NCBI RefSeq assembly: GCF_018873765.1
Contig: NC_057923.1
Span: 60,444,593 to 60,508,592 of the forward strand
Direction: 5' to 3'
DNA: 64,000 nt
Origin: Telopea speciosissima
Lineage: Eukaryota; Streptophyta; Magnoliopsida; Proteales; Proteaceae
The translations under genes and the position numbers were made by a program. The notes beneath the pieces are model-generated. The model made no database searches. It saw only the letters and a program-made list of their open reading frames with translations, and had not been told where the DNA came from. Position 1 is the stretch's first letter; the number at the start of each line of letters is the position of its first letter. Positions 2,267-62,792 of this stretch are shown here, piece by piece.

Positions 2267-2438
2267 TCTTTATCACCTCCATTTTGCTGAACGGTCCAAT
2301 TCCCCAGTTCCTCTAACAAAGGGGGGCTGAAATGACCTCTCTACCCATGCCCAAACACCCTGCCCGGGTGGGGTCCACCATCCCCCTATTAGAGGAACTA
2401 GGGAACTGGGCCGGTCAGCAAACTGGAGGTGATAATTT
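2267..2438. repeat. GC-rich hairpin repeat, class I
   Basis: The arms at 2267-2323 and 2381-2438 are imperfect inverted repeats; the outer part pairs ATCACCTCCA with TGGAGGTGAT. The loop carries the core TGAAATGACC followed by a C-rich tract. Close relatives lie at 8138-8310 and 39275-39430. No clear target duplication was found. Confidence 0.6.
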
Positions 2439-2849
2439 TCCGTTCGGATTTGCACCCTAAAAAATAAAATAGTTCACGGTTCGTATCGAATATAGGCCAA
2501 TCTCAACACAGCTATTGATTATATATTAATTGTATCAGACATTTTTGCCCTCAAATATATCGATACCAACATTATTTTGATCATTTTACCCTTTATCCAT
2601 ATCATAGTATCATACCACTGATCTGATATAGTCAAGGTATTGCCCCGTTAACACTGATACAGCGATATCGACTCCTAAATAGTATCCACAAGTATCTGAC
2701 TCTCTGATTGAATTGGAAAAAGATATTTTCAACTTTGTACTAGAGATTCTCTCCCCAGCATGGTTGAAGAAATACTTAAATCCAAAATTGGACTTCTCTT
2801 TCCTCAACTAACATAAATAAGAGGATAGAATCATAGAATATAAAATAAG

Positions 2850-3040
2850 GGTGGGGAATCGATGCCAGGCTCTACGTGGCCTTTGCATTAGCATGGGGGC
2901 CAATGAGAGGGCTCACAAGGGTATTCAATCGGGGTGAGATTTTCATTTCATGGGGGTGGAACAGTCATTTTTCGTCCTTCCTGTGTCTAGGCACAGGCTC
3001 CATGCAGCATGGCCCCCTTCTTTTTCCCGTAAGATATATA
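2850..3040. repeat. GC-rich hairpin-type repeat, diverged
   Basis: This stretch has the shared core GGGGGTGGAACAGTCATTT near 2952 and family words such as CTAGGCACAGGCT, but its arms pair poorly. It looks like a decayed member of the hairpin group and directly abuts the better copy at 3098. Confidence 0.35.
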
Positions 3041-3097
3041 TTTTTCCAACTTAAGTAATCAAACTGTAAAGCCTGTGAGAATAGCATTTTCTTTTAA

Positions 3098-3234
3098 GGG
3101 TTCATGTTCTCTACGCCGCAGCGCAGGCTGCACCCAGACACATGGGCCTGCCACTTAGGGGGCAGGGCGATCATTGCGCCCACCCCCATGTGTCTGGGCG
3201 CAGCCTTCGCCCCCGGCATAGACAACATTCTCCC
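3098..3234. repeat. GC-rich hairpin repeat, class II
   Basis: The arms pair GTTCTCTACGCCGCAGCG and the following CCCAGACACATGG with the mirrored CCATGTGTCTGGGCGCAG and GGCATAGACAACAT. The core GGGCAGGGCGATCATT lies between them. This is the best example of class II, whose other members are at 28240, 41125, 61577 and 62685. Confidence 0.65.
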
Positions 3235-4269: not shown

Positions 4270-4484
4270 TTTATTTTAAGGAAAATTACACTGTCATCCC
4301 TTGAGGTTTGTATTAAATACAGAATGACCCCCTATGTTTTTAAATTATACAATCACACCCCCTGAGTTTTGGTTAGTTGTTACAGGCAGCCCCACTTCTT
4401 TATATCATTCCCGTTAAGTGATAAGGTGTTGATAATTCATGACATACAATGACTAATAAACCCCTATTAGGGGTGTGAGCTTAC

Positions 4485-4635
4485 CAACCGATTGCCCTTC
4501 CCATCCTCTCATTACTCCATCTCCGTCGCTCACATTCTGCAGTTTTGATTCTCCATCTCCATCAGTTTCTCGCCCATTCCCTCTTTCTTTCTCTCGTTCA
4601 CACCCTTTGTTATTGAAGCATAGTGTCTCTTGCAA
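4485..4635 (+). repeat. Direct repeat copy 1 inside the outer MULE
   Basis: About 150 bp beginning at CTTCCCATCCTCTCATTACT recurs in the same orientation at 6326-6476 with roughly 90% identity by eye. Both copies belong to the outer MULE, so they reflect an internal duplication older than the Pack-MULE insertion between them. Confidence 0.7.
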
Positions 4636-4843
4636 TTTTTTTATGGGAAATTTACACATACCACCCCTGAGATTTGACGAAAGGATATTTTCACCCCCTA
4701 GTTTTGGAAAATTCTGCGTACCCCCTTGAGGTTTGCAAACGGTAACAAATAAGCCCATTCCGTCAGCTCATGACTAGCACTGTTAAAAATTAGACTTGAA
4801 CTGACGGAATTGCCCTTACAAGAAAAAAAAAAGAAAGAAAAAA

Positions 4844-4894
4844 CACCTGCAACTCATCTTCCCCAATCGATTTTGGGGAAGATGAGTTGCAGGT
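4844..4894. repeat. Near-perfect short palindrome within the MULE arm
   Basis: A stem of about 22 bp (ACCTGCAACTCATCTTCCCC with its complement) closes on a short loop around ATCGAT. A copy with one mismatch lies in the opposite arm at 5961-6012. Confidence 0.75.
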
Positions 4895-4989
4895 ATCCTT
4901 GTAGGGAACACCATGGAACCGATCTTGATTCACTCTCTTTCCTTTCCCTCTTCCATTTGCTTTCCCATCTAAAAAACTTCACAGTAGCT

Positions 4990-5264
4990 GCATGAGACCC
5001 ATAACAGAACTGCAATACCTCTTCAAAGTGCTCTGGCAACAGAGGAATTCCGGTGCGTGATAACTCAACTTCAAGTTCAGGAACATGGACTTTGGAGATG
5101 ATTTCAAAGAAAATCTTCACATTCGGAGAGATATTTGCGTTGTCATGATATGAAGAGAACAATTGTGGTCTCGGAATAGAGGGAATTTTTGAGTTGCTGT
5201 TCTGCGAGTGTTTTGAGGGACCAATGGAGGTTGCATTTCTAGGGTTTTCGGCCGCGACCGCCAT
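4990..5264 (-). pseudogene. Captured PPR-gene fragment in the Pack-MULE
   Basis: The frame opens with MAVAAENPRNATS and continues through ISPNVKIFFEIISK, VELSRTGIPLLPEH and FEEVLQFCYGSHAATVKFFRW. This arrangement is typical of the region just upstream of the first repeats in plant PPR proteins, which bind organelle RNA. The frame then runs into the terminal inverted repeat, so no PPR array remains. I infer capture of one exon piece by the MULE. It might be transcribed from the element end but cannot encode a working PPR protein. Confidence 0.6.
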
Positions 5265-6325
5265 TAATTAAGTTTAAATAGAAGCGAATAGTGAACCTTG
5301 AATTGAGAAGATAAAGCAAAAGCTCTAGAATGATACAGAAACCTTTCAAATCTCTAATCCAAAACCCTAAAACGGATCAAACCTTGTACTCAATAAGTGG
5401 ATTTCATCAAGGAAACTGAAATTCGTGACCAAAATAATTGAAATTTAGGAGATTTTCCCACTATAAGAAGTAATATGACATGGATAAGTATTTTGCAGAG
5501 GAATCTGAACATAAAAAATCTATGATTCTTTCGCTTTTTGTCTTTTATCCCTTTCTTTATTTATTGTCCACACACCCCATTTCTGAATTCCGACAAGCTT
5601 TGAGAAAGACAAGGCAATTGTAGGCGGTGTTTAGGAGTGAAAAACTACAGAAGTTGCAGTGTAAGAGCCATATGTTTTACGATTGCAATTTGCAATTGAT
5701 TGAGAGAGACGTTCCTTCATTCTTTCACTTGTCAAAAAAGAAAATGAAAAAAAAAAATAAAGGGCGGAGAAAAATCAAAAGAGTGTTCATCGGAAAGGTG
5801 ACGCAGGTAGGCAACCGTCATCATCCAATTCCATTCGTCTAAAGCTTTAACGAAGCAACAAAAAAAAAAAGAGAAGATCCTGACGATCAGGGGGTTGAGA
5901 GTTATCGAGGGAAAGGAAAGAGAGTGAATCAGGATCGGTTCCATGGTGTTCCCTACAAGGATACCTGCAACTTATCTTCCCCAAATCGATTGGGGAAGAT
6001 GAGTTGCAGGTGTTTTTTCTTTTTTTTCTTTTTTTTCTTTTCTTGTAAGGGCAATTCCGTCAGTTCAAGTCTAATTTTTAACAGTGTTAGTCATGAACTG
6101 ACGGAATGGGCTTATTTGTTACCGTTTGCAAACCTCAGGGGGGGTACGCAGAATTTTCCAAAACTGGGAGGTGAAAATATCCTTTCGTCAAACCTCAGGG
6201 GTGGTATGTGTAAATTTCCCTTTTTTTATTCAACATTCTGCAGAACAGAGATGTATAAATGAATACCTACAACTCCATCGCTGACCTGCAACTCCTCGCA
6301 GAACAGAGGAGTCCCTCACCACTTC

Positions 6326-7691: not shown

Positions 7692-8137
7692 CATAGATGT
7701 ATAAACGAATACCTGTGCGGTGGATTTGTAGGTCAGCGATGGAGGCAACTTCAAATTTGGGGAAGAAGACAACGGTAAAAAAGGTTTGTCTTGCAATCTT
7801 AGAAGAGGGCAAAGTTGGTATTTAAAATGTATTATTTAACACCGTCCATTCAGAGGGTGTGGCTGTATAATTTAGAAACTAAGGGGATCGCTCTGTATTT
7901 AATACAAACCTCAGGAGGTGGCAGTGTAATTTTTCCTTTATTTTAAGTAAAGTCTTATTTAAGTTGTTTTTTTGGTAATTATTTAAGTTGTTACATGTTA
8001 CGAAGTTAGAAGTATACCGAAATTCTAAGTCCTGTTTTATATAAAAGAGTTGTAAACTCCAAATCAATGGACAATGGAATAGCATTATGGGTGAGGGTTT
8101 CCGACCCTGCTAATGTGGGGAAGGGGGAATCTCCTAT

Positions 8138-8310
8138 AATTTTTATCACCTGCGGTTCTCTTGGTCGGTACGGTTCTCTAGTGCCTCTAATAAAAAGGGG
8201 GTGGACCTCACCTGGGGAGTGTATTTGGTCAGGGGGTGGAATGGTCATTTCAACCCACCTATGAGAGGAACCGCACAACCGTACCAGTCAGTGAACCTCA
8301 GAGAATAAAT
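8138..8310. repeat. GC-rich hairpin repeat, class I
   Basis: The arms pair TCGGTACGGTTCTC with its interrupted complement in GAGAGGAACCGCACAACC. The core AGGGGGTGGAATGGTCATTT is at 8232-8251. Confidence 0.55.
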
Positions 8311-8756
8311 GTCCGAATCTCCTACGCAACACCAATCGGGGTGCAAGAATCAAGAATATGTTTGATCAATTAGGGGCCCACACAGTCACAGAGGAGAGAG
8401 TGTCAGGGATGTGAGAGGGTGTGGGAAACCATTCCCTCACTGACAGTGTGGGGATCTTTTCCCTAGATTTATTTGAAAAGAGTTTGTGGGTTTGAGGAAA
8501 TTCTTCTCCCTCCCTCATCCTTCCCATCAATCTCTCTTTTCTCTCTCATCTTTCTTCCTTTTGATCCAATCTCTTCCCCATCCCAGTGGCACTTGCTGCC
8601 TCCTCGCCTTTTTCTTTCCTTCTTCCAATCGATACCTTGTACTTTATCCTCTCTTATGTTACTGTTGCAGGTCCCTATTTTGCAGGTGCAGCAAGCTCTC
8701 CATCATCAAGTCCCAAGCCTGTTTTTTCTCTCTACTTCTATTTTTTTTTTTACTAT
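8311..8756. other. Gene-free interval
   Basis: Pyrimidine-rich tracts at 8500-8760 give long open frames of low complexity. I find no protein signature and take them as chance frames. Confidence 0.45.
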
Positions 8757-16011: not shown

Positions 16012-16635
16012 TCTACTTGTCTCTCTACTCTAAACGAAACATGGTAATTCTAGTTTAGGCTGCATTTGGTTGCTGTCTCGGAGTAAGGAGAGAAGGGAAT
16101 GGAAACTGAAGACTGAAGGCTGAAGGAATAGGTTTCGGGTGTTTGGTTGCCCTAAAAAAATTTATGGAGAGAAAAATGGAATAGTTTGAAGCAAGTTGTA
16201 GTATGTGACTAATGGGGTTCGATCTAATGTATGGGCGTTACATTGGGCCAACCTTTACCCCCCAAAAAAAAAAAAAAACAAAAAAAAACAAAAGATTGGA
16301 TCAGCCTAATATGGGATATGTTAAAGGTTTAGCTTAACGTGTTATATTAGTATTGGAACTTTTGGTGTATCGATCAAGTACCTAACATTTATTATCAGAG
16401 CTGAACATTACATCACGGGTTCTAATTTAATCTGTAGGCACCAAACTTTGGGGTTTACTTGCCCACAAATTTGGGCCTTTTCATTCAGTCTGCTACATGG
16501 CACTTATTTATGCGTCCTGACAAAGCTTATCAAGATGGACGTCCTAGTTTCCTAGATAATTTTGTCATTGTTCTTAACTTCAGGGATAGAGAACACTACT
16601 TGGTTGTGTGAAATGACCACTGCACCCTATAATAT

Positions 16636-16735
16636 TTCCGATTTTCCTTAAGGGTGCGGCGATCATTTCATGCGGCCCTATGCCTGACCGCATGGGCCGT
16701 GTACTGCACACGATCAGGTAGCACTCTTTCAACCT
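16636..16735. repeat. Short GC-rich hairpin-type repeat
   Basis: The core GGGTGCGGCGATCATTTCAT is followed by partly pairing GCGGCCC and GGGCCGT words. It looks like a diverged member of the hairpin group. Confidence 0.4.
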
Positions 16736-28239: not shown

Positions 28240-28360
28240 GGGGAGAATGTTTTCTGTGCCAGGGGTGCAGGCTGCGCCTAGATACATGGGGGTGGGTGAA
28301 TGGCAAGCCCATGTGTCTGGGCACAGGCTACGCTGCGGCACAGAGAACATCAACCCTATG
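28240..28360. repeat. GC-rich hairpin repeat, class II
   Basis: Ends ATGTTTTCTGTGCC and GGCACAGAGAACAT pair. Inner arms are GCAGGCTGCGCCTAGATACA and TGTCTGGGCACAGGCT. The loop word GGGGGTGGGTGAATGG is a variant of the shared core. Confidence 0.7.
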
Positions 28361-28427
28361 TTAGTAGTTTTGGGATAACTTTTATTTAATTGTCAAAAAA
28401 TATAATGGGAGAAAGAATGCTAAACGG

Positions 28428-28603
28428 TGTTGTGCCTCAGCGTGTACCTTCGCCTAGGCATAACCGCTTGTGAAATGATTGATGCACTCCTAGTCCTTTC
28501 CGCCTTTCAGGAGGGTGCACTGCTCATTTTGCCTGCGATTGTGCCTGGACGCAAGTACACGTCGAGGCACAACACCAGTTACCATTCTTTTTCCCAAATA
28601 TAA
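28428..28603. repeat. Long GC-rich hairpin repeat with distinct arms
   Basis: The arms GGTGTTGTGCCTCAGCGTGT and CACGTCGAGGCACAACACC pair almost perfectly, followed by a bulged inner stem. The arm sequence differs from class II but length and composition are the same. Confidence 0.65.
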
Positions 28604-28644
28604 TTGTAAACATACGAAAATAATAGGGCATACAATAAAAAAAA

Positions 28645-28788
28645 AAGGCAAGAGATCTCTACTTGGTGGTGTTTCCTATGCCCTTTCACAAGGTATCGTG
28701 AGATGACACCTCTGCCCCTTGGGTAGATATCCGAACGTGCTCACCCATTGGAGTGTAGGAAACACCACCAAGTAGAGATCTTATTCCC
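28645..28788. repeat. Hairpin repeat with near-perfect 26-bp arms
   Basis: The outer arms AGATCTCTACTTGGTGGTGT and its complement pair over about 26 bp with no more than one mismatch. The loop is about 85 bp and CG-moderate. A partial relative with the word GGCAAGAGATC starts at 48268. Confidence 0.7.
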
Positions 28789-28799
28789 TAAAAACTATT

Positions 28800-30608
28800 G
28801 AGTTTTTTACAAATGCCCCCCTAAAAAATACTCATTTGTTCAAATGCACCCCTACAACTTTTTTAATTACAAAATCCCCCTACTTTCAAAACAGTGTAAC
28901 ACTTTAGTCCAATCCTAGTTTTAAAGAATCTAATGACCAAAATGCCCTTTTAATAAAAACCCATCAAAATTAAAGAATAAAATGATCAAATAGCCCTCAT
29001 CTTCCCAAATAGTTTAGGGTTTGAAATTGAAATTTTTTTTCCCAAATCAATTAAGGTTTAAAGAAAAACACAATTGAAACTGAAAACATTTTCAAGATTG
29101 TAGGTTTAATTAGATTTTTATTAAAACAGTCCTCAATCTTGGGTTTTGTCTCGGACATAAGGGTTTCGAAATACAGACCTAGGGATTTCTTTTAATCGAT
29201 CTGGGAGGAAAGCCAAACTGATGAAGCTCTAACAGGTTTGCAAAAGTCGGGACTGATTACTCCATTAGAACAGCATACGGACATCAAACCAGGTGAACAG
29301 AATATGTAATATATAAAGTGGGATTAAATTAGAAGGTAACAGTAAAAAAGAGAAGATAATAAAAGGAGAAGAAGGAGAAGAGGGGCTCACACGAGCAATC
29401 AAACCACAAGAGGTTGAAGTTCAAAGAACATAGATAAAATTTGGAGCACAAAACACCAGCTATCATCAAAATACTTTAAGAACCCATTCGATGATGTAAG
29501 ACTCCATGACAGTACAGAGGAGAATTCACATTGCAGAGCAGAGGCATTTACTTTGTTTTCTACGAGGGTAACTAAGTGTAATTCAATATACAAGTTCTAA
29601 GTTGGAGGCTTCTTTGGGATATAAATAACAATCATTCAATTCAATGCCATTTATAAATTACAAACAATACGCTGTACACGTTCAAGTTGGCCCTTCAGCT
29701 TGTTCCATTCAAATCAAAATATTTCAGGTACATTAATCATATTTGATCGATATGACTCATTCAAACAATTAGCCACAGAGACAAATCATGGAAGCTTTAA
29801 AGTCTCTTGGTCCCTATTCCATCCTAGTGTAGGCGTATTGACAAAATGTGCATAAAGCTTGTTCTTGCCGCAGGTCACAAAGATCAATCTATGGGAACCC
29901 ACTTGATCCATCAATCTCATAAACATAGTAGACCTGACCCTTATCATCCTTCCTCTCTTCAAACCTGAAGCTATCAGCGCTGGAGATGACATCCTGCAAC
30001 TCCACATCCGATAAGGCCAAATTGTTCAAGATGACGTCCATGGGTGCAAGCTGCCTGAACCCAGCTAGGAACGTAAGGTACTCTCTCTCGGATTTTTCTT
30101 GGGCTTGTAGAATTTGCTGTCGGTGCCATTGGTGCTCTGGGGGATTTCTATCCCATCAAGTTCACATCACCCAGTGCTCAGGGGGAGTACACCGGATCAC
30201 AGAAGCAGCAGGGTGAGTGACAGAGAAGAGTAGATGAGAGCAGCAGTGTGGTAATGTCGCTGTCGCATTGCTAGCCACCGTCGCAGCAGCGTGAGAGGGT
30301 GAGGAAGTAGGTTATCTTTGAAAGAATTTTCAGTTTCAATTGTGTTTTCCTCTAACGAAAAAATTTTCAGTTTCAAGCCCTAAACTATTGGGGAAAGGGT
30401 ATTTTGGCAATCAGAGTGGATGAGTGGGTTTTTATTAGAAGGGTATTTTGGTCATTAGAATTCCTAAAACTAATGTCTAGTGTCCCAAATTAAGGGACTG
30501 GACTAAATTGCTATACTGTTTTGAAAGTAAGGGGAATTTGCAATTAGAAAAGTTATAGGGTGCATTTGGACAAATGAGCATTTTCAGGAGGGCATTTGTA
30601 AAAAACCC
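28800..30608. mobile_element. MULE carrying a PsbP-like gene fragment
   Basis: Ends GAGTTTTTTACAAATGCC and the complement of GGCATTTGTAAAAAACCC, with an exact 9-bp duplication AAAACTATT (28791-28799 and 30609-30617). Terminal repeats extend for about 200 bp (GACCAAAATGCCCTTT against AAGGGTATTTTGGTC). A related element lies at 44001-45584. The minus strand of the interior holds a broken gene piece. Confidence 0.85.
29790..30170 (-). pseudogene. Captured PsbP-domain-like fragment
   Basis: In two frames separated by a shift near 29895 the minus strand reads KFYKPKKNPREYLTFLAGFR, DVELQDVISSADSFRFEERK, GQVYYVYEIDG and then HRLIFVTCGKNKLYAHFV with WNRDQETLKLP. From memory this order (YYxYEI, then a stretch ending in KLYxHFVNxPxxxW) is that of thylakoid-lumen PsbP-domain proteins. 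The frameshift and the missing transit peptide make it a pseudogene. The family call is moderate; a BLASTX would decide. Confidence 0.5.
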
Positions 30609-30639
30609 AAAACTATTAATTAAAAAACTTACACTTGAC

Positions 30640-39274: not shown

Positions 39275-39430
39275 TCATAGGGGAATCGTTATCCCCTCCA
39301 ATTTCCCCAATTCCTCACATAGAGCGGAAATGACCACCCTACTCCCTGCTTGAAAACACTACCCAAGGTGAGTCCACTCCCCCTATTAGAGGAATTGGAG
39401 GTACCTGCAAATTGGAGGTGATAATTATTC
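39275..39430. repeat. GC-rich hairpin repeat, class I
   Basis: The arms TATCCCCTCCAATTT and AAATTGGAGGTGATA pair; inner arms are CCAATTCCTC and GAGGAATTGG. The core GGAAATGACCACCCTACTCC is at 39325. Confidence 0.6.
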
Positions 39431-40785: not shown

Positions 40786-41124
40786 ATATTGTGTACACCT
40801 TAGATACCATATAACTATCATGATGAGAGGGATAAAGGAGAGAAGCATATCAATAAAGCAAGGAGAAAGAAAGAATGGAAAAAAAAGATTTGGAACACAA
40901 ATTACAAATAAACCCCAAAACTTAAAGTTTATTAAGTCCACATACTCGCATAAGACAAACAAAATCAAAGCGCAATATCTTCCTTTAAAGCTTGTTGACT
41001 AATTGGAGGGGTAAATTTTGTCTTATGCTTCAGAAATCACAAAAACTGCATGTGATTACTCTAACCAAAAAAAAAAAAAACACTAATATTTCTACTTCTA
41101 GAGTTCTTTTAATACATATAAGGG

Positions 41125-41258
41125 CTGAAGTTCTCTGTGCCGCCCGCGCTCACCCACATATGCTGGGTATTCCTGCCATTTAGGGGGTAGGGTGAACATT
41201 TTGCATACCCCCATGTATTTGGGCACAGTCTGTTTCCCTGGCACATAAAACAATTGAC
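41125..41258. repeat. GC-rich hairpin repeat, class II, diverged
   Basis: Starts GTTCTCTGTGCCG and ends CCCTGGCACATAAAACAA. The core is GGGGGTAGGGTGAACATTTT at 41183. Inner pairing is partly lost. Confidence 0.5.
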
Positions 41259-43040: not shown

Positions 43041-43602
43041 ACTATAATCATCCTAAACAGAAATAAATGTAATCAAATTTTTTTTTTTAATTTAGGATTT
43101 TTCTATTGATACCTTTTAAGGTGTCAAATAAATTGTAGTCAGAATTTTTACCATTTTAATACAACACACATTTTTTTTCTTCCAATAAAGGCAACTATTT
43201 TCATTTCACATGTATATTTTAAAAAAATGTCCATAACAATGATAACTCTTGATAAGAGATATTTTCTTATTGATAACCCTTAATGTGTCAAATAATTTTT
43301 TATTTTACATTTTTATCCTTTAGTATAATTCCTTTTCTTTTACAATGAGATAAATACTATCATTTTGTATATATAATTGAAAAATGTGTAAAACAGTGAC
43401 AATTTTTAATTATCACATATTGATAAGTCACTTTCAAAGTATTTTTAAAATTCTTTTATATCCAACTTAATTTTTTTTAGGAATAAGACGAATACAAGGG
43501 GCAAATGTGTGAAGTTCTAAATGCATCTATAGATGTGTCATTTAAACAGTTCCTTTAATAATGAAATAATGATATATCACTTTCAAATTATTTTTTAGGG
43601 AA

Positions 43603-43770
43603 GCTGTTTTCTGTATGGGAGTGTGGCCTACACTACACTAGCACTCTCACGTGTCTATCTCTCTCCTCTTTAAAACAAGGGGGCAGATGTGTCTTTTCAC
43701 ATGAAGAGGAGAGAGATAGACTCATGGGAGTACTGGCGTAGGCCACACTCCCAGACAAATAACTTTTTTC
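43603..43770. repeat. Hairpin repeat with GAGAGATAGA arms
   Basis: The arms GGAGTGTGGCCTACAC and GTGTCTATCTCTCTCCTCT pair with AGAGGAGAGAGATAGACTC and GCGTAGGCCACACTCC. The loop AAGGGGGCAGATGTGTCTTT is a variant of the shared core. Confidence 0.65.
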
Positions 43771-44000
43771 CTATTTTTTAAAATCCTTTTATACCATTAA
43801 TTTAAAAAATGGTTTTAAGTTCCCATCTAGTTTTTTGTTCCCTAAATTAAGGTAGAGATGAGAGATGTTTGGAAGGACCTTTGAATTTTGAGCTAAATTG
43901 TGCTTAATTTAGATACTAAATCAGTATTTATTGAAATAGTGCACTAAGAAACGAATGAATTTACCTACTTACACCTACCATTAGTTACCATTAAATTATT

Positions 44001-44915
44001 GGTTTTTGTCAAATGCCTCCCTGAAAATGCCCCCCTTTACAATTTTTCTAATTGTAAACTCCCTCTTATTTTCAACAAATTATAGTATTTTGGTCCAGTC
44101 CGTTACTTTGAGATGTTAGACGTTAATTTTAGGGAGTATAATGACCAAAATGCCATTGTGATAAAAGCCAACAAAAATTAAAAAATAAAGTGATCAAATT
44201 CCTCTCATCTTCACCAAATGGTTTAGGACTTGAAACTAAAAATCAAACCCTAAACCATTTGAGGAAGATGAACCTAAAAATCAAACCCAATAATCACCCA
44301 TCAATCCAATCGTAATTTCTTCTGCAAATCGAAAAAACTCGAAGGGAGAGAAATTTATTGAATGCCATGGGGTTTGAATCCAACATTTTTTGAAGGGAGA
44401 GAAATTTATTGAATGTTTCAAGTATCATGGTTCGATTGAGTGGATCAATCAACACCGACGCCTCTTTACTGCTTTCTCTCTTCCATCCTCCAATTTCCCC
44501 TGTTTGTCATTAAAAAGTATCATAAGAATATGCTCATATCCAACTCTCAAATCTCAAAATTTTCAAAAATCAAAACTCTAATTCTTAACATAATTTTTAA
44601 ACCAAACCATTACAGAACTCAGAATTCAGCATTAAACATTCGATCAAAGCAAATACCTTATAAACAGGGCCGAATTTACCCTCCCCGAGCTTTAGATGGG
44701 AGTGAAAATCTCTGGTTGCTGCAATTAGGGTTTCTATAGAGAATTGCTCCTGTTCCTGTGCTGCGATATTCTTCTCTAAGTCCTTTCCTTCCGGTGACTC
44801 TGATATGATATGAGATCATTCCCCATAACCAGAACAGAACCAGAACCATTAGGGAGGGAATTTGAGAGATCTCTGTTTCACACAATAGTAAAACAAAATG
44901 AAAAAGTGTATTCAC

Positions 44916-44953
<38 letters not shown>

Positions 44954-45584
44954 AAAAAATGGGGTTTTGTGTTGTTTACCTTTTCCAGAGTGGGATTTGA
45001 AATGCCAAATGAGATTCTGCCAGAAACCGGCTGGTTTCATAATCGTTGTCGGTTGAGTCTTGTGTTAAATTCGATGGATTAGTGAGGAAAATTGAAGAGC
45101 CACATACATGTATGAGTAGATAAGATCGTTCCTGGGTTCTTCTTAGGTTCCCTGATAACTCAAGGGGATGATGAGGGTTCTCTCTCTCTCCTTATGTCTC
45201 TGTGTGTTTCGTATACCTCCTTCTCTCTTCGATTTTTCGATTTGTAGAAGAAATTACGATTGGATTGATGGGTGATTATAGGATTTGATTTTAGGGTTTA
45301 TCTTCCCCAAATGGTTTAGGGTTTGATTTTCAGTTTCAAGCCCTAAACCATTTGGGAAAAATGAGGGCAATTTGATCACTTTATTTTTTAATTTTTGTTG
45401 GTTTTTGTCACAAAAGCATTTTGGTCATTACACTCCCTAAAATTAACGTTCAACGTCCCAAATTAACGGACTGGACCAAAATGCTACAATTTATTGAAAA
45501 TAAAGAGAAATTTATAATTAAAAAAATTATAAAGGAGCATTTAGACAAATGAACATTTTCAGGGGGTATTTGACAAAAACCCTT
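44001..45584. mobile_element. MULE related to 28800-30608
   Basis: Ends GGTTTTTGTCAAATGCC and the complement of GGTATTTGACAAAAACCC. Terminal repeats run for about 250 bp (GGACTGGACCAAAATGCTA mirrored by the left arm). The flanks TTAAATTATT and TTAAATCAAT agree at 8 of 10 bases, a decayed duplication. The interior carries different cargo from its relative; none was recognised. A run of about 34 A stands at 44918-44951. Confidence 0.75.
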
Positions 45585-45589
45585 AAATC

Positions 45590-47580
45590 AATTACACAAC
45601 AATCCTAAATAATTCCATAGCTAATAATTTACATTATTTCAAGTCAATTATAAGCTAGAATCCTTAAGTCCCTTGTTCAGCTAGTCATGTAACGAATAAA
45701 GATGAGAAAATATATTATAATTAAACCCTCTACAGTAAAGTACTGCACTAATTGCCTTCACACACACAATTTTAATTTGAATAAAATATATTTAAAATAT
45801 TCCAACATGCCTTTACCCCAGAAGTAAATCACAATCATACACAAGAAAGGAAAAGGTTTGCTTCAAGGAAATCAATCAAATAGAACACCCCTGAAACCAT
45901 GCACTACCAAAAAGTCCATACAAGGCGAAATCTCTGAGTGACAAAATATACAATGGTCTAGGAATCAGAGTTGATATGACAACCTGTATAATCCAATTCA
46001 ACACACATACAGAGGCCATTTAGAAGCACCCTCATTTTTGCCTCTGAGTTTGTGCAAACTCCGTAATAATTAACAAATTTTTCACTAAATGGGTTGTCAC
46101 ATGAATGGGTTATTAAAACGGGTCACAAAAAAATAATAATAAAGAGGAAAAGAACCGTCTCTGTGTCTAGACACAGAAGCGCATGAATGTACCCCGCTGC
46201 CCTTATGAAAATGTGAAAATTTCACTCAAAACAATGTTTGCGTGTATTTTCATTGGCTAGTGTGCACATACAGGCTCTATCGAATCTGTATACTCTCCAA
46301 CTACTTAGATTTCCAACTCCTTTCCAATTACTCATCCATCGACTAAAAGGACTTGGACATGCATCCCAACACCTGCGAACATAGATGCATCTACAAGTCC
46401 TCCCCGTCTCAAAGAGCGATATCTTTCTCAAAATAAAAATAATCAAAACAAGATAATGTTACAACCAATGTCCATGGGGACAAGAATTGAGATACGAACA
46501 GTGGGGCTGCCCCACACGCACTATCTCAATCAATGTGGCGTTGGTTGCCGATATTATTCTCAATATAAAATATTAAAGCTTTGACATCGTCAATCAAAAA
46601 AGAATGATCTCTGTCAATTTTTTTTAATGAAACTCCATTAAAATGCAATCTAAAACAAAATAAAAAGAAATCAACGCTCACCTTCAGAAATCTCTGTTTA
46701 AACAGATTCACCCTTCTAATTATTTTGCATAATTTTTTTTTTTTTGGATATGTATTTTATTCTATGGAGGGGGAAAATAAATATTATAACTTAAGGAGTT
46801 ATTTGTGAATCCTAAGGGAAAGTGAATTATTCTTTTTTTTTTTTTTTTTTTGGCTTGCAAACCCAATTTGCAGGATAGGATGGGCTTTTACACAACACAC
46901 TCTACCAACTGTGCTAGGCAGTTGTTCTTGTATAACTTTATCAAAATTTCAGTTCTATCCAATCTGTCATGTAGTAGATAAGATTGTTAATTTCAAACCA
47001 AAACCAAAGACCGAAATCGAACCAAAAAAGAGTCAGTATGGTTTTGGTCTCAAGAGAATTAATCTTATTGGGTCAGGGTTGGATTTTTCAGATCCTGAGT
47101 CTGGGCCTGGATTCAGCTAAGGGGAATCAAGGTTAGACTACGGTTTTAAAAAGCCCGGTCCAACCCAATCTTGTTGCAACCCTACTTATTTCTATAAATA
47201 TCACTACTCTATGGTGCAGTAGATTATTAACTGTATTATCTTCTACCAATAACAAAAAAAAAAAGATTATTAAGTGTATTATTATTTCATTATTTTAGTT
47301 TTCTGATTAATTACAAATAAGCATGTCTTTCATCTGGTATTTCCTTGACGGTCAGCGGAAAGCTATCAAAATTTATAAGGAGAAGACGTTGATGAGAAGA
47401 GTTTGTCTATTGTTGAAAAGTCCTCGTAGACCTTTGGAACTCTTCTCTCTAATATTAATTAGTTAGGTGTGCCATCAAATTACATTCAATTAATTAATAA
47501 CAGATAAGTCCCCCAAGCCAGTGTGCTTCATCAATCCTGTCTCCATCGTTTAACAGCTAACGACTAGTACTTATTGCTCG
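45590..47580. other. Gene-free interval
   Basis: AT-rich, with a T-run at 46830-46850. Degenerate AACCAAAACC words at 46995-47030 suggest a fragment of a motif-array element. A half hairpin (GTGTCTAGACACAG) is at 46161. Confidence 0.45.
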
Positions 47581-47589: not shown

Positions 47590-47775
47590 GGTGAATGTTA
47601 TCCTCTATTGTCCGCTGCTCGAACAACACCTGTTATCCTCTCACATGAGGGCAAAATGACGATTTAACCTCCTTACCCGAACACACTGTCCAAGGAAAGT
47701 TAAGTCGTCATTTCGCGCCTCATGTGGGGGGACAGCACTGTGCTGTTCGGGCAGTGAACAACAGACGGTAAAAAT
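47590..47775. repeat. Hairpin repeat, class I-like
   Basis: The arms GTCCGCTGCTCGAACA and GTGCTGTTCGGGCAGTGAAC pair. Inner words CATGAGGGCAAAATGACGA and TCGTCATTTCGCGCCTCATG also pair. The core is a weak version of the shared one. Confidence 0.55.
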
Positions 47776-47832
47776 TCTTGATGTCTTGTATTCCTTCACT
47801 TGCATAAGTAGGCTGATTCTGTACCAAGGCCC

Positions 47833-48267: not shown

Positions 48268-48440
48268 TTAGGGCAAGAGATCGTCGCTTGGTCGTGTGAC
48301 CACTACACCAGTGTGGGGGCCAATGACAGCATGCGTAGGGGGTATCAATATAGATGAGATTTTTTATTTCATGGGGGTAGGGCAGTAATTTCATATGCTC
48401 CTGTCTGGGTGTAGGATCGACGCGACCACGCAACCTTTTT
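48268..48440. repeat. Hairpin-type repeat, diverged
   Basis: Starts GGCAAGAGATCGTCGC, like the element at 28645, and carries the core TGGGGGTAGGGCAGTAATTT at 48371. The outer arms GGTCGTGTGACC and GACGCGACCACGC pair only partly. Confidence 0.45.
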
Positions 48441-50090: not shown

Positions 50091-50736
50091 GCATGATCCT
50101 AATCCCCCATTTATCAATATTATACATTGACAATATTATCTATTATCCATCCATATATATATATCAAACCCATGTAGCCCATAAGGCTGAGGAACCCTTG
50201 TCTCGAGGACCACGATACTTACAGGAACCCATGGCAGCCTTTGATGATGACTTCCTCCTAGAGTTCCTACTACCACTACTACGGCACCTCATCCCCACCC
50301 TGTTCTTCTTTGCTCACTATTGCCTTAAGATGTTCAGCGCCCTAGTATTCCTACTAGAATACCTCCTCTGAACTTGGCCTCCCGGTACCCACCTCCGCCT
50401 TCTCCTTCGCCTTACGCTTCTACTTCTTGTTTTCTCCTAGCTCCTTATCGAGTCCTTCATTTGAGTCTCTGCTGCTTCTCTTTCGATACCGGAACTCCAG
50501 TCTTTGCTTTGGAAAACTTCTCATCTTAGACCTGCGATTCTTTTGTTCCTGTTTCCTGTTGTGTGTCCTATGTTGCGTCTTTAGGGTGGGTCCTGCTGTC
50601 CCCCCTTTGATGCTTGGCCTTTTCTTTCGGTTTGTCTCATCTACAGGGTTCATGGAATCCCTCCATTCTCCCACTTTTACCTTCTAGTTTTGTGCCCTCC
50701 CCTTTTCATACTTCCATGAATAACTAACCTGGCCAA

Positions 50737-51588: not shown

Positions 51589-52672
51589 GCGACTGTATTT
51601 CCATGTTTACAAGCTCAGAGGAAAAACATGGAGGATGCACCCATGATGCCAACCCCAAGCAACGGCGTCAACACCGGTACCGGAGAAGAAGATGGAGGAA
51701 CGATGAGGCTAATCCTGAATTTCGAGGCCAAACACAGTATCTGCACTGAACACGCTGCACTGGGTCAACAGCCTCGATCTGCCAACAACGGTGGGAGACA
51801 ACACATCAAATCTGGTGCTGTAGCCATAGTTGTCAGAGACCAAATCAACTTATATACTTCAGGATGATCAAAAAGGGCCACAGTGTCTGTTAACCCTTGC
51901 CTACCCCAGCTTCCCATTCTAAAACAAACCGCAAGAATGTTGGGATCACAAACACCTGAATTGTTAGGCTCACTAAAGACAAACTTGCACATCAACTCGT
52001 TGACTATCCAAAGCCCTCTCCCCTCCCCTATACAGGAGTACCTCCTCAAGTGCCCGGAACACTCAACAGTTGTCCTCTCTCTCCTTAATCATATGGTCGA
52101 TTTCACAATATCTAGACCAAATCCTACCCATCAGCTGGAACCCCTAAGGATACCATATCCTGACCTCATGACAGAGACCCGTCCTTGTAACAAGTCTATA
52201 AGCCCATCAAGGGTCACACCACAAAGCCAAGTGGATGGCCAGTCCATTTTGGAAGGCCTATACACCCAGACCCTGCTACCCACCCACACCACAACCCACC
52301 TTTTCAAACCAAATATGGCCAACAATTTCCAACCAGATACCCACAACACCCCTATCCCTGTTAACCCAATCACCCCCTTCATCTCTATCCAACATTCAGG
52401 CTCTTTCTCCAGTCGTATGTCAATGGGTAAAATTGCTATGAAAAAAGGTAAAATGCAATCCAAAGCCCATCAAGCTCTCATCATTGTCGAGACTTTAAAA
52501 GCAACCAGGAAAGCCAAACGGCCCAAGCATATCAAATTGGACAGCATGAACTAGGTGGAAGAAGCCCAGGAAATCAGCCCTACCAAGGATCAAGTTCAAG
52601 CACACAACCTGAACCATTTTTTATCAAATGGACCCTGCGAGACTGGGGTGAAACAGTCTCACCAGGGACAAT

Positions 52673-55600: not shown

Positions 55601-56838
55601 GAGTTTAGAAGGAAGATCTTTTAAGGGAATTCTTTCACCCCCTGACATACAGGCTATTAAGCAGATTAAACTCAACCTCTTACCTAGGAATGACAAACAT
55701 GTGTGGGGAGCTGCTCGAAATGGTCTTTTCTCCATCAAAATGGCTTATCATTTTCAAGCTAATCTAAGGGACCATGCCCTCGATAGTGGTGCTTCTTCTT
55801 CTTACAGGAAAGATTGGGAACTTATCCCATCGAGTGTATGGAAACGTATTTGGCATTGCAGATCTTGGCCAAAGATTAAGAACTTCCTTTGGAGATGTTG
55901 TACTGAAGGAGTTGCTACAGGTGAGGGTCTATTCAAGAGACAAATCCACATTGATCCGAGCTATAGAAGATGTGGTTGCCAGCTCGAATCCATTAACCAT
56001 GTTCTAATGGAATGTTCATTTGCCAAAGCAGTATGGTTCGACAGTGAGTTAAGCTTCAACGTCTCCCTCTTTGGCTCTCCCCCAACCAATGCTCGTTTCC
56101 TATTGAACTAGGAGAAGATCAGTTTCCCCTCCAAGAAGAAAGGTAGAGAGGTGTTGTCCCTGGCCTCTTTCATTTGTTGGTTTATGTGGTTGGCCAGAAA
56201 TGAACTCTACTTCAATTGAAATACCTGGTCTCCAGAGGAAGTTATCTTTAAGGCCCACAAGGCTTGGCAGGAGTTCGAGAAAACCTCTACAATGGCTCCT
56301 TATGATTCTCAGGAAGGCGTAGATGCTTTCCAACTCCCGCAATCCTGGCAATGCCCCCCTACGAACTTCATCAAGATTAATGGAGATGCTGCCACCCAAG
56401 AGGAATCGACTATGGGAGGTATTGGGTTTGTTCTGAGAAACTATTTGGGGGATCCTTTGGCTGCTGTTTCGGAGGTTGTTGACTTCCCGAGTGTTTTGTT
56501 TGATGAAGCAATTGCGATCAGATCAGGGCTTATTTGGGCACAGGATGCTGGGTATCCAAGGCTTCAGGTCGAATCTGATAACTCAACACTTATCAATTAT
56601 TTGAACAATCCATCTTCCCCAATCCGCTGGGAGCTGGATGGTATTATTCATGACATTCGGTGCCTCTCTCTCTCCTTCCCTGCCTGTTCTTTCTTTTGTA
56701 TTCCTAGGGTGATTAACAATGTGGCTCACACCCTAGCAAGGAAAGCCCTGTCGATGACAACTACGATAGTTTGGCCTATCTCCACTCCTTGGCTCTTGGA
56801 TTTGTGTAAACAGGATTTCTCACAACTCATGCCGATGT
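52673..56838 (+). pseudogene. LINE ORF2: endonuclease, reverse transcriptase, RNase H, disrupted
   Basis: The endonuclease region shows LIFLMESKSQGDKINRI, GLALMWHS and ITSDHNPLVV around a stop at 53298. The RT has APKMADHYRPISLCGVAVKI, ALKLDMKKAYDRMEW, RQGDPLSPFIFILCSQVL and LLFADDCLLF. A frameshift lies in the A-run near 54395, and others near 55150 and 55320. The zf-RVT is WRCCTEGVATGE with CGCQLESINHVLMECSF. The RNase H shows KINGDAAT, LFDEAIAIRSG, VESDNSTL and NNVAHTLAR. The final ORF2 codons overlap a 37-bp stretch shared with the CYP82 gene (56814-56850). Confidence 0.85.
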
Positions 56839-56954
56839 AGACTTCAAGGCGAACTAGAAGTTATAACCTTACTTTTTTGCCCTTTGTCTTATTTCCAAAA
56901 GTTACTAATGATGTCGGAAATGATTTGCCATTTAAGGTGTCGGATAAAAAAATT

Positions 56955-57921: not shown

Positions 57922-57924
57922 TAA

Positions 57925-58679: not shown

Positions 58680-58948
58680 CAAGAATGACTTTTTTCGATT
58701 TGGCTCCTGTCCTGCAGTGGCGGGAGCTGCCGGGAGCTGGAGTTTCCAACCCAACTAAACGATAGTAAAAACAGGGGTGGGGTGGTCATTTCACATGTGG
58801 GGGCCACTATGAGTTAAGATTCAAGAATGACTTTTTCCGATTTGGCTCCTGTCCTGTAGTGGCGGGAGCTGGAGCGTCCAGCCCAACTAAACGACAACAA
58901 AAACAGGGGTGGGGTGGTCATTTCACATGTGGGGCCCAACCCCACCCC
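58680..58948. repeat. Two tandem copies of a GC-rich hairpin-family unit
   Basis: Two units of about 120-130 bp each start near GAATGACTTTTT and GATTTGGCTCCTGTCCTG. They end with the core AGGGGTGGGGTGGTCATTTC followed by ACATGTGGGG (58772 and 58904). A third, inverted copy of the core is at 59025-59056, so the first TATA block lies between inverted cores. Confidence 0.8.
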
Positions 58949-58950
58949 CT

Positions 58951-59138
58951 GTTGTTGGGTGGTTTCCATGAGTGTCCAGCCATGGAAGATCTACTACTCA
59001 ACCATATATATATATATACAACGGGCCCCACATGTGAAATGACCACCCCACCCCTTGTTTTTGGGTGGTTTCCATGAGCGTCCAGCCATGGAAGATCTAC
59101 TACTCAACCATATATACATATATATATATATATACAAC
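58951..59138 (+). promoter_or_regulatory. Tandemly duplicated start-codon/TATA block of the CYP82 promoter
   Basis: Unit 1 (58951-59022) and unit 2 (59055-59138) share GGGTGGTTTCCATGAG, GTCCAGCCATGGAAGATCTA, CTACTCAACC and an (AT)n TATA tract ending in ACAAC. The word AGCCATGGAAGATCT recurs a third time at the true CYP82 start (59182). The second TATA tract at about 59110-59134 is well placed to give a start of transcription near 59140-59165, that is, a short leader. Confidence 0.75.
58982..59077 (+). other. Upstream ORF 1, 31 codons
   Basis: Starts MEDLLLNHIYIYTTG and ends GWFP before a TGA. Its first six residues repeat the CYP82 start (MEDLLL). It would be translated only from transcripts starting upstream of 58982. 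Confidence 0.45.
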
Positions 59139-59303
59139 ACGAACCCTTTCTATAGTCATGCATTCATTCATTTCACACTCAGCCATGGAAGATCTTCTTC
59201 TTCTTCTTCTTCAATCCCTAGGCGCAATTGTTGCCTTCATGATCTTGCTCCATCAATATTATTTTTGGATGAGAAGGTCAAGATCTATCACCCACGAAAC
59301 TAG
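59088..59303 (+). other. Upstream ORF 2, overlapping the CYP82 start out of frame
   Basis: Starts MEDLLLNHIYIYIYIY and runs past the CYP82 ATG at 59185 to a stop at 59303. If present in the mRNA it would block initiation at the main start, so the leader must normally begin downstream of 59088 or use leaky scanning. Confidence 0.45.
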
Positions 59304-62300
59304 ACCTTTCATGAGTCCCCAATTCGCCCCTGAACCATCTGGTGCCTTACCCATCATTGGCCATCTCTCTCTACTAAGAGGTCTAGTTCCACTTTCCCGG
59401 TCACTTGGTGCCATCGCCGACAAATATGGCCCAATTTTCATGATTCGTCTCGGCGTTCATCGAGCACTTGTGGTGAGCAGCTTAGAAGTGATCAAGGAAT
59501 GCTTCACCACCCACGACAAGGTCTTCGCAACACGCCAACCATGTGCTGCAGGCAAGTACCTTGGCTACAATTATGCTTTTCTCACATTTGCACCTCATGG
59601 TCCTTATTGGCGTGAGATCAAGAAGACAGTCACACTTGAGCTCCTCTCCAAGAACCGACTTGACATGCTTAAGCATATAAGAAAGGGTGAAATTGACACA
59701 TGCATCCAAGAGTTGTACTCATATTGGGCCAAGAACAGAGGAGGTGGTGGTGGTGCTGGGCCAGTCTCTGTGGAGATGGATCGATGGTTCTGTCGTTTGA
59801 ATTTCAATGTTATTACTAAGATGATTGCTGGGAAAAGATATTTCAATACTTTTGATGATACGGCTAAAGATGAGAATGAAGAAGCTGGGAGATTTGAGAA
59901 ATTAATTGAGGAACTAACAAGGTTGAGTGGGATTTTTGTCCCTTCCGATGTGCTGCCTTACCTTGAATGGATGGATTTGCAAGGACATTTGAAAGCCATG
60001 AAATCTATTGCTAAGGAAGTTGATAGTTTAATTGGGAATTGGCTTGAAGATCATCATCATCATCATCACCTTCATGAGAAGAATAAGCAGAAACAGGAAG
60101 AAGATTTCATGGACCTGATGCTATCCATATTTCCTGATGAGGAAAAGTTGATATATGGTTATGACCGTGATACTGTCATCAAGGCTACTGTACTGGTATG
60201 TCCTTGTTAAATTTATTGCATTTTCTACAATATTTTTTTTTATATCTTATGCTTTCAAGTTAATTCTACTGAATTATAATGATCAACTTGGTGTTGTGGG
60301 AAGCCATTATTGGGTCTAATCTTTAGGAAAAAATTGATCCAAGGGTTGTGAGTTAATAAGTGGCAACCCTTTAGGAGAAGTAGTTAAGAAATTTAATTTT
60401 TTGTTGAAAAGTGCTTGGAGAATTTTGGGAGTATTCCCCCTAAATTAAATACTACAATTGATATATATAGTAGGTAGGTGTGCTGTCAAATTACATTCAA
60501 TTAACTATAGATAAGTCCTAACAAGCTAGCTACTACATCTTAATTTGATGTTTGAAGTATAGTTGGAAAATCAGTTTTTTTGACTCAACTTGTCTTTCAG
60601 AAAAACTTGGTGATTTGGAATTGTCAAACTCGGTCAATGTGAGTCATGTTTTTTTTTATTTTTTTAATGCAATGGATATGTATAAATTAATAAAAACCCA
60701 AAAAAATAAAGAAAAAAATATGGGAAAATCAAGAGGAAAAAAAAAGGAATCACATATCAATGAATTTTGAGTTTATACCATTGAACAAGAGAAGGGAGAG
60801 TCCAGGAGTTGAGGGTTTTTTAATGTTTTAGAATACGGATTTACTATTTAACTCAACTTGGTTTTTAAGTGAAACGATTTTATGATTTTTTTAAAAACGA
60901 TTAAACTTGCCGAGTTTGTCATGACTCGGGTAAAAAGACCAAGTCTTATTTGACTTGGACGACTTATGAACCAATCTCATCATTTTTACCTTGACCTAGT
61001 CTACATAACTCTTGATCAGGTTTTTCAAAATTTTGACTTGATTCGGGCGACTTGCCTCAGTCAAAGTCAAAACCCTGTTTTCCAACTATGGTCTGAAGAC
61101 TTTTTTATTTTTTTAAAACAAAGCTTTACTAATAGAAAGGTGTAGTACATATAGATTTTGAATTACAAGTGTCAAGAAGCCATAGAGTAGATATTGGTCA
61201 AATAGTCCTACAAGCTACAGGTCAAGGATCAGGACCTCTTAGCAAGGGAGTAAGCTAAACTATTTCCCCCCCCCCCCCACCCCACTCTTAGCAAGGGAGT
61301 AAGCTAAACTATTTCCCCCCCCCCCCACCCCACACTTAGAATAAAAACAAAAGTACATGATTCTAAACTCGATGCCAGATGAGTAATATCATGGATTTTA
61401 GGAATCAAAGATATTGGTGGATGAGTGTACTTGTCCATGAGGATAGAGATCAGTATTTTGTGCTTCAATCCGGTTTCCATCCTTCAATAGCTAATTAACG
61501 ATCAGTTATCACATATCATTGATCACTTACCTATCTAAAAATACATAAAGTAAATAAAAATAGCTTCTTATAAGGGGAAATGTTCTCTGCATTGGGAGCA
61601 CAGGATACGCCCAAACACATGATGGTGGGCAAAATAACCGCTCCGCACCTCTAAATGGCCGAAATGACATCGCGTCCTACCCCACGTGTCTAGGCATAGC
61701 CTACGTCCCCGTGCGCTCTGAGGAAAATAATCCTTTCCAATTCCCTAAAAGTGTACAGTGAGGCAATACTAGGTGGAGATGTCAACATTTGGCAACTCAG
61801 ACATCCAACATTCCAAGCTCATTGAATTCTGGGCAAAGAACAACGCCCCTTGTTATAATTATGATATATGTTTTCTGATATCAAAAGGATGTATTGACTC
61901 TTTTAATTTGTTTCCATTTGCATGTAGACTCTTATTGTAGGTGCCACTGACACCACATTCATAGCCTTAACATGGGCTCTCTCCTTACTCTTGAAGCATC
62001 CCAATGTGTTAAAAAGAGCCCGAGATGAGTTGGATGCTTATGTTGGCAAAGATAGAAACGTGGATGAATCAGATATTAAGAACCTCGTGTACCTTCAAGC
62101 CATTGCCAAGGAGACACTACGCCTTTACCCACCTGGACCTGTTTTGCCACGTCAGGCAATGGAAGACTGTCAATTGGGTGGATATCATGTCCCCAGTGGC
62201 ACACATTTGCTTGTGAACATATGGAAGCTGCACCGAGACCCTAGCGTGTGGTCAGACCCTGATGAGTTCAAACCAGAAAGATTTCTCACAACCCATGCCG

Positions 62301-62551
62301 ACGTAGACTTCAAGGCTCAAGAGTACCGGTATATACCGTTCAGTGCTGGTAGAAGGCAATGCCCTGGTATCACCTTGGCCACGCAGGTCTTCCACTTGAC
62401 GCTTGCTCGTCTTCTCCATGGGTTTGATGTGATGAACGCTTTGGATGCACCAGTGGACATGACTGAAGGTGTAAGCCTCACCTTACCCAAAGCAAACCCT
62501 CTTCATGTTCTCATCACTCCACGCCTGCCTTCTAAGCTATATGAAGACTAG
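59185..62551 (+). CDS. CYP82-family cytochrome P450
   Basis: Plant CYP82 enzymes are ER-anchored monooxygenases, many acting on alkaloids, terpenes or phenylpropanoids. Exon 1 (59185-60195) and exon 2 (61928-62551) join CTG|GT..AG|ACT in phase 0, giving 544 residues. Visible landmarks: N-terminal anchor (residues 5-24), hinge PEPSGALPIIGHL (49-61), WREIKK (142-147), I-helix GATDTT (342-347), ExxR E399-R402, PERF 453-456 and the heme loop FSAGRRQCPG (475-484, Cys482). The text PVSVEMDRWFCRLNFNVITK and MIAGKRYF is the CYP82 style. The second Gly of the I-helix motif is Ala343. A natural run of six His (290-295) lies in the F-G to I region. The 1.7-kb intron carries a hairpin repeat and a tandem duplication. 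Substrate cannot be inferred. Confidence 0.93.
61238..61334 (+). repeat. Tandem duplication in the CYP82 intron
   Basis: Two units of about 48 bp: CTTAGCAAGGGAGTAAGCTA, then AACTATTT and a run of about a dozen C. Confidence 0.85.
61577..61738. repeat. GC-rich hairpin repeat, class II, in the CYP82 intron
   Basis: Starts AAATGTTCTCTGCATTGG with CACAGGATACGCCCA; ends CCACGTGTCTAGGCATAGCC and CGTGCGCTCTGAGG. The core CCGAAATGACATCGCGTCCT is at 61659. Confidence 0.55.
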
Positions 62552-62684
62552 ACTACTCTAGCTAAAGAGATTTGATAGAAAAAAAAATAGTCAAGTGTGT
62601 AATGCTTGTGATGGAGATTAGTTTTTCTTTTACTTTTGCCCTAAATCCTATAGGAGATACGTTATATATATTTTTTTCTTGTAA

Positions 62685-62792
62685 AAGGAGAATGTTCTCT
62701 GTATCGCAGCGCAGGCTGCGTCCAGGCACATGGGCTTGCCACTCAGGGGGGCAGGATGGTTATTGCACCCACCCCCATGTGAGAACAGCACG
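62685..62792. repeat. GC-rich hairpin repeat, class II, 3' truncated
   Basis: AGAATGTTCTCTGTATCGCA, GCGCAGGCTGCG and a core GGGGGGCAGGATGGTTATTG are intact. The right arm stops at CCCCATGTGAGAACA, so most of it is missing. It lies about 130 bp past the CYP82 stop and probably in the 3' UTR or just beyond. Confidence 0.55.

Follow-up and report, generated by a model that had tools for sequence, protein, structure and literature searches.

Short repeats in a 64,000-nucleotide stretch of Telopea speciosissima DNA (contig NC_057923.1, C8:60,444,593-60,508,592; hereafter, the window) are firmly identified as non-autonomous Mutator-type miniature inverted-repeat transposable elements (MITEs) of at least six arm families, since 9-bp target duplications flank copies both in the window and elsewhere in the genome. 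These families share one core, a rigid bipartite motif of the form GGG(Y)-N6-GTCATTT. The motif is a recurrent component of Mutator-type elements, with one or two copies in MITE arms and rows of copies in some long terminal inverted repeats (TIRs), and it is probably a shared cis-acting site of Mutator-type TIRs that is kept while the arms diverge. The assembly behind the genome-wide counts has 1287 contigs and 822,943,500 bases.

Pairwise alignment and a profile search divide the window repeats into at least six families, A to F (Table 1). Within a family, likeness spans most or all of the element including the arms; in family D it is limited to roughly two thirds of the longer copy. The several separate arm classes described in a first-pass annotation of this DNA are therefore upheld, and the family alignments make each class a separate MITE family. 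A weak and short match connects family C with the right arm of family B.

The same annotation had proposed a core common to several arm classes, and the window matches, leave-one-family-out scoring and genome counts all place this sharing far above chance. Its 19-mer, at up to three mismatches, occurs six times in the window against 0.01 expected, three of the six (58774, 58906 and 59036) belonging to one local duplication. When each family in turn was left out of a 20-column matrix and then scored with it, 14 of 17 elements showed the core at p ≤ 0.005, the exceptions being 47598 (p 0.054), 28406 (p 0.011) and 28240 (p 0.64, core deleted); six other hairpins scored with the same matrix gave p values from 0.03 (4845) to 0.96. 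A weakness of this matrix is that its training cores were picked by eye. Independent of it are the genome counts, in which the 17-mer core GGTGGGGTGGTCATTTC, at up to two mismatches, has 4,999 + 4,900 = 9,899 sites on the two strands compared with 89 + 72 = 161 for the reversed word.

The spacing between the two halves of the core is rigid. The pattern GGG[CT]-N6-GTCATTT occurs 25 times in a 226-kb sample (the window plus the flanks of fetched loci, which is MITE-rich and counts some window elements twice through locus L091), whereas every other gap from 2 to 11 yields 0 or 1 occurrence and the reversed pattern none. A looser scan with GGG-N(k)-[GA]TCATT peaks at the same spacing (51 occurrences), with shoulders at gaps 8, 9, 2 and 3 (42, 19, 22 and 12) that we attribute to G-runs. 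With no prior choice of word, GGGT-N6-GTCATT appeared 26 times in a 202-kb sample (L091 left out, window kept), 43-fold over expectation, and the only higher ratio belonged to one tandem-repeat-like word (10 times, 120-fold). When sites are aligned on the core, conservation across families is high over about 22 columns and drops outside them. Within the MITE arms, the core occupies the middle or the inner end, and two copies are frequent.

The core was followed into the genome through 90 loci with an exact 17-mer, namely the 100 matches listed, all on C1 and C2, minus ten that were the second member of a close pair. After masking of the core, community detection, used because single-linkage had merged 91 of 105 sequences into one component, gave classes that were named by eye: 34 loci in class F, 37 in a broad C/D/E-like class, 4 in B, 3 in A and 12 singletons. 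Among these listed matches, class F usually carries the core in both arms, inverted. A second core at up to five mismatches was present within 170 bp in 38 of the 90 loci, compared with 1 of 90 for the reversed word; 32 of the 38 are inverted, and in 19 of the inverted cases the offset is 49 bp. A site pair of the core form GGGTAAGGCGGTCATTGC, in both orientations and 42 bp apart, was also seen at positions 2994-3036 of locus L112. One scan of viral contigs for a core variant found none.

The assignment to the Mutator type rests on target duplications, of which the first-pass annotation had seen no clear case. Among 14 window elements, a set without family F and the truncated copy at 62685, exact 9-bp duplications flank four (2267, 8138, 28406 and 43603); a single mismatch separates the two copies at 39275 and 16590, two mismatches do so at 3098 and 28653, and the remaining six elements have at least three, against a random-position null of 0.13% for exact duplications and 2.0% for up to one mismatch. 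They had been overlooked because they are located just outside the visible arms: the true ends lie further out, most starting with G, followed by the 9-bp duplication. Genome copies of family A, the best-matching ones as ascertained by the left arm alone (L091-L120, 3 of 30 without anchored ends), have exact 9-bp duplications in 24 of 27 cases (23 of 26 without L091, the window's own copy), one mismatch in two and two mismatches in one, against a null of 0.12% exact, and the duplicated sequence varies from copy to copy. These copies are 93-100% alike over the queried arm and mostly have perfect duplications, which indicates that at least part of family A has moved recently.

For family B (L121-L140, ends not found in 3 of 20), 11 of 17 copies have exact 9-bp duplications (one of them poly-A), three have one mismatch and three have three or four, against a swapped-flank null of 0.4%. 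The target duplications of this family are almost purely A+T, unlike those of family A, and may reflect a different insertion preference or transposase. Among the listed, core-ascertained matches, class F has exact duplications at 12 of 23 loci (L028 and L029 being one element), one mismatch at eight and two to four at three (null 0.1% exact, 1.4% with one mismatch). The corresponding figures for the C-like class, in which 6 of 37 loci lack candidate ends, are 4 of 31 exact, four with one mismatch and 23 with two or more (swapped null 0.1% and 0.6%). Five families (A, B, D, E and F) thus have exact 9-bp duplications, as do genome relatives belonging to the C-like class. Stowaway and Tourist MITEs generate a TA or 3-bp target duplication, and this identity was rejected in view of the 9-bp duplications of varied sequence found here.

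Sharing is not confined to the middle of the elements, contrary to the shared core and variable ends described in the first-pass annotation. About 25 bp of terminal sequence is common to one member each of families C (48268), D (16590) and E (28653), and end pairs from different families reached z ≥ 4 in 12 of 324 comparisons, compared with 2 of 400 for random 40-mers. The modular build that had been suggested is borne out by class F, whose outer arm and core are constant. Of 22 class F elements looked at among the matches listed, 20 were classifiable on both sides, and nine of these carry one inner-arm module on the left and another on the right; L044 and L045, both among the nine, may stem from a single insertion. 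Recombination may accordingly have added to the mosaic of arms, to judge from these modules and from the match between family C and the right arm of family B. L044 and L045 (C1:72.90 and 73.00 Mb) are class F elements about 97 kb apart with near reverse-complementary duplications, and are probably an inverted segmental duplication, not two insertions.

All 13 positions of the first-pass annotation had been called hairpins; seven fold today (counting 58889-59071 for 58680), and the remainder are decayed relatives only, placed by their similarity to other family members. Gapped self-alignment detected strong inverted arms in 9 of 17 repeats (z 8.4 to 16.1), weak arms at 8138 (z 3.9) and 16590 (z 2.3), and z ≤ 1.0 at 2850, 41125, 48268, 58680, 61577 and 62685. 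RNA folding against dinucleotide shuffles gave z ≤ -6.9 in 10 of 16 elements, with no clear fold (z -1.2 to +0.6) in the other six (2850, 8136, 41121, 48268, 61574 and 62685). The proposition that every core-bearing element is a present hairpin is, by both methods, false for about half. Three further hairpins with the core or a core-like motif, at 28406, 28653 and 47598, are absent from the earlier list. A scan of the window returned no tRNA and no Rfam family at the gathering score, and a known structured RNA was on this basis rejected as the identity of the hairpins.

AT-rich forms of the core occur in the window outside the listed hairpins, for example GGGTATTTTGGTCATTA at 30441. Across the genome, the AT-rich word AGGGTATTTTGGTCATTT, at up to one mismatch, has 1,617 + 1,547 = 3,164 sites compared with 1 + 0 for its reversed form, and AGGGYANNNNGGTCATTT, matched exactly, has 1,755 + 1,737 = 3,492 compared with 9 + 8 = 17. 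Twenty exact AT-rich sites, hand-picked among the matches listed (two of them for their 6.9-kb same-strand spacing), fall into nine flank groups without mutual similarity, one family accounting for nine sites, a second for four, and seven being singletons. Among the singletons, L146 matches the long-TIR repeats J1 and J2 of the window, and L160 lies beside a B-like element.

Rows of the motif were found in long TIRs at five loci (L161-L165) chosen as inverted site pairs 0.9-1.6 kb apart. L162 is a Mutator-type element of ~1.7 kb with TIRs of 435 bp (427/435 identical) and an exact 9-bp duplication, TTTTTATAT; each TIR carries six motif copies, which all point the same way and follow one another at 34 to 46 bp. 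The ends of L164 are almost those of L162; it has five copies in one TIR and six in the other, and a poly-A flank that has little say on duplication. Each TIR has three copies in L165 and two in L161 and L163. Copies were counted at up to four mismatches of 14 fixed bases, five off-row matches with four mismatches (one per locus) being dropped; the reversed word gave four matches across the ten strand scans of these loci. In the window, the long-TIR elements J1 and J2, and perhaps K, have the motif in each of their TIRs (Table 1); K is a weak case because the reversed word gave three matches there.

L164 also encloses an importin-5-like coding fragment (534-1052) and is a candidate Pack-MULE. 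Pack-MULEs and TIR-MULEs (MULE, Mutator-like element) are defined in PMC3903597; a Pack-MULE has a host gene fragment between Mutator-type TIRs and an 8-11 bp duplication. In L164, the fragment between the TIRs is seen and the flanking duplication is poly-A.

We consider a cis-acting site the most likely explanation of the core because the rigid spacing, the reiteration and the unrelated arms all fit a putative protein-binding site; the reading also rests on analogy with subterminal repeats in Mutator-type TIRs and with the VANC-bound arrays of VANDAL elements. The protein would most likely be a transposase or an accessory anti-silencing factor, and less likely a host factor. The arms would be free to diverge, and sometimes to recombine, so that the motif would outlive the arm sequence, and the core and terminal bases would be the main sequence left in common between different arm families. 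More tentatively, and with the balance of our judgement somewhat against it, the 18-bp form AGGG(T/C)A-NNN-T-GGTCATTT could be the recognition site of a single trans-acting plant protein, of which unrelated, converging transposon families have spread thousands of copies. Candidates for such a protein would be a Mutator-type transposase, an anti-silencing factor or a host architectural factor. Mammalian repeats that have spread long binding sites offer a parallel for the plant motif, and the TGACC half of the motif would, we presume, suit the WRKY-GCM1 finger of Mutator transposases.

Several observations weigh against a cis-acting site of Mutator-type TIRs. Selection on the core, which the first-pass annotation had suggested, is not seen within family B, because the core is no better kept (0.94) than the adjoining loop (0.96; right arm 0.90; copies found by the left arm, L133 dropped); the window copy of this family at 28240 has lost the core, and the fetched B copies have it, by eye, on one side only. 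The orientation differs as well, AAATGACC pointing inward in A, D and the long TIRs and the opposite way in F. Two copies of the AT-rich family that holds nine of the twenty sites are separated by 6.9 kb on the same strand and have similar flanks, resembling long terminal repeats (LTRs), and a purely Mutator site should not occur in LTR-like repeats unless captured. The AT-rich motif is also present in repeats of unassigned type, where TIRs were not sought. L161-L165 give no frequency of the motif in TIRs because they were chosen as inverted pairs, and no target duplication was found for L161, L163, L165, J1 or K, nor a clear one for J2.

Some of the same facts would suit common descent alone, in which the arms of one ancestral Mutator-type MITE diverged or were swapped and the middle is a functionless remnant. 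The terminal sequence shared by members of C, D and E, the short match of C to the right arm of B, the mismatched inner-arm modules of class F and a family B core no better kept than its surroundings are all expected from it. We nevertheless judge common descent alone unlikely, since conservation ends at about 22 columns and the gap is fixed although the arms of A, F and B are little or not alike, since the motif is repeated five to six times at 34-46-bp steps in long TIRs, and since the 20 AT-rich sites divide into nine flank groups unrelated to one another. Scarcely better placed, and still rather improbable, is a site for a host transcription factor or architectural protein, distributed by several transposon classes and aiding their transcription or tolerance or titrating the factor. 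A rigid 18-bp bipartite motif found in MITEs, long-TIR elements and other repeats agrees with this, and the E2F sites in Brassicaceae MITEs (PMC12595863) are a precedent; the presence of the motif in both TIRs of the elements read, L161-L165 having been chosen as inverted pairs, speaks against it. Chance likeness of GC-rich sequence, made up of G-runs and TCATTTC, would account for the loose matches in the earlier list, whose three exact copies are one local duplication. It is contradicted by shuffled and reversed controls in the window and the genome and by the leave-one-family-out scoring, in which the core does far better than chance; with virtually no probability left to it, we regard it as ruled out.

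Mutator MITEs are common in plants (PMC12550479), and the repeats described here resemble plant MULE MITEs (PMC12550479, PMC12595863) in their inverted repeats, 9-bp duplications, size (mostly 120-190 bp) and high copy number, and in having long-TIR relatives and a gene-fragment member (L164) in the same genome. They differ in that many arm families share one rigid internal motif. No mention of the motif was found in the open-access literature searched by sequence words and by layout. The layout itself, for which the first-pass annotation knew of no named family, has a counterpart in the coral MITEs termed CMITEs (PMC2872659), piggyBac-type families with different TIRs, a conserved 75-bp internal region and a TTAA duplication. 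The window families likewise combine different TIRs and a conserved internal region, with tandem arrays and a terminal motif that is kept; the internal region is more alike across families than the TIRs, but some 25 bp at the termini are common to one member each of C, D and E. Unlike CMITEs, they are of Mutator type with a 9-bp duplication, and their core is about 20 bp and rigidly bipartite. CMITE or piggyBac identity was accordingly rejected, 9-bp duplications standing in place of TTAA.

Reiterated short motifs in Mutator-type elements have been described in Muta1 of Aedes, in which 12-bp subterminal repeats with 3-4 bp spacers occur within one family (PMC5225508). The elements described here are similar in having short repeats inside long TIRs and 8-9 bp duplications, whereas the motif is 18 bp long, recurs at 34-46-bp steps in L162 and is common to many families. 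Arabidopsis VANDAL elements carry same-oriented arrays of VANC-bound motifs, YAGTATTAY or AGTTGTMC, each in few families (PMC5735166). A short motif in one orientation and at high density in non-coding parts of the element is common to both systems, with an array layout in L162 and L164; the likeness concerns motif layout alone, and the motif differs from YAGTATTAY and AGTTGTMC. The 10-bp E2F site amplified by MITEs of several superfamilies in Brassicaceae (Henaff 2014, via PMC12595863) is similarly one short site carried by several MITE groups, with a known binder, whereas the site described here is 18 bp and putative.

Table 1 MITEs and long-TIR elements of the window, with core positions and target duplications.
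Element	Position	Strand	Details
Family A Mutator-type MITE (2267)	2264..2441	-	Duplication GTTCGGATT at 2255-2263 and 2442-2450; core 2329-2348 (minus)
Family A MITE (8138)	8136..8314	+	Duplication GAATCTCCT(A) on both sides; core 8232-8251
Family A MITE (39275)	39283..39430	-	9-bp duplication, 1 mismatch; core 39327-39346
Distant family A MITE (47598)	47590..47780, approximate ends	.	Core-like motif in both arms (47653 minus, 47695 plus); no duplication found at flanks
Family B MITE	3098..3234	+	Core 3158-3177; duplication 7/9
Family B MITE without core	28240..28358	-	Core deleted; no duplication found
Family B MITE (41125), decayed arms	41121..41258	+	Core 41183-41202
Family B MITE (61577), decayed	61574..61734	-	Two tandem core-like copies (61631, 61661), both minus
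Family B MITE, 3' part lost	62685..62790	+	Core 62747-62766
Family C MITE, decayed arms	2850..3024	+	Two tandem core-like copies (2930, 2952)
Family C MITE, decayed	48268..48440	+	Core 48373-48392
Family D MITE (16590)	16581..16732	+	Core in both arms (16610 minus, 16650 plus); 9-bp duplication, 1 mismatch
Family D MITE (28406)	28407..28595	+	Exact 9-bp duplication AAATATAAT; core-like motif in both arms (28472 minus, 28511 plus)
Family E MITE (28653)	28641..28794, approximate ends	-	Core 28700-28719
Family E MITE (43603)	43598..43771	+	Exact 9-bp duplication TATTTTTTA; core 43679-43698
Family F material, local duplication	58680..59140	+	Core 58773 and 58905 (plus), 59036 (minus); upstream of cytochrome P450 frame
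Long-TIR element J1	28791..30617	.	TIRs 28791-29098 and 30314-30617 (240/279 identical); AT-rich core copies 28931, 28980; 30440, 30396 (1, 2, 1, 4 mismatches); reversed word 1 match
Long-TIR element J2	43903..45668	.	TIRs 43903-44598 and 44944-45668 (527/641); core copies 44139, 44188; 45413, 45364 (2, 4, 3, 2 mismatches); reversed word 1 match
Long-TIR element K	4607..6272	.	TIRs 4607-4950 and 5907-6272 (324/343); one core variant per TIR, 2 mismatches each (4799 minus, 6048 plus); reversed word 3 matches at up to 4 mismatches

The window is plant nuclear DNA, with reading frames that match the reverse transcriptase, cytochrome P450, NPH3 and PMR5N families; among the reverse-transcriptase matches, RVT_3 lies above Pfam's own cut-off and RVT_1 below it. 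Fragmented reverse-transcriptase-type frames at 50728-56840 are probably a decayed long interspersed nuclear element (LINE). The family B copy without a core adjoins a 32-bp tandem repeat at 28169-28241. A methionine at about 59185 is a possible start of the cytochrome P450 frame (59038-62551); the roughly 500 bp upstream of it contain three perfect copies of the core, and an effect of these copies on the promoter of this frame is possible.

If the core is a binding site, it would provide a handle on what lets Mutator-type MITE families amplify, being short, rigid, present in thousands of copies and absent from at least one sister copy. The identity of the trans-acting factor common to many MITE families would then be open to direct testing, and many unrelated repeat families of one plant genome would be distributing one long regulatory-type site. 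Were it residual ancestry only, the repeats would still be a plant Mutator-type case of a shared middle with diverged arms, the layout reported for piggyBac-type MITEs of corals.

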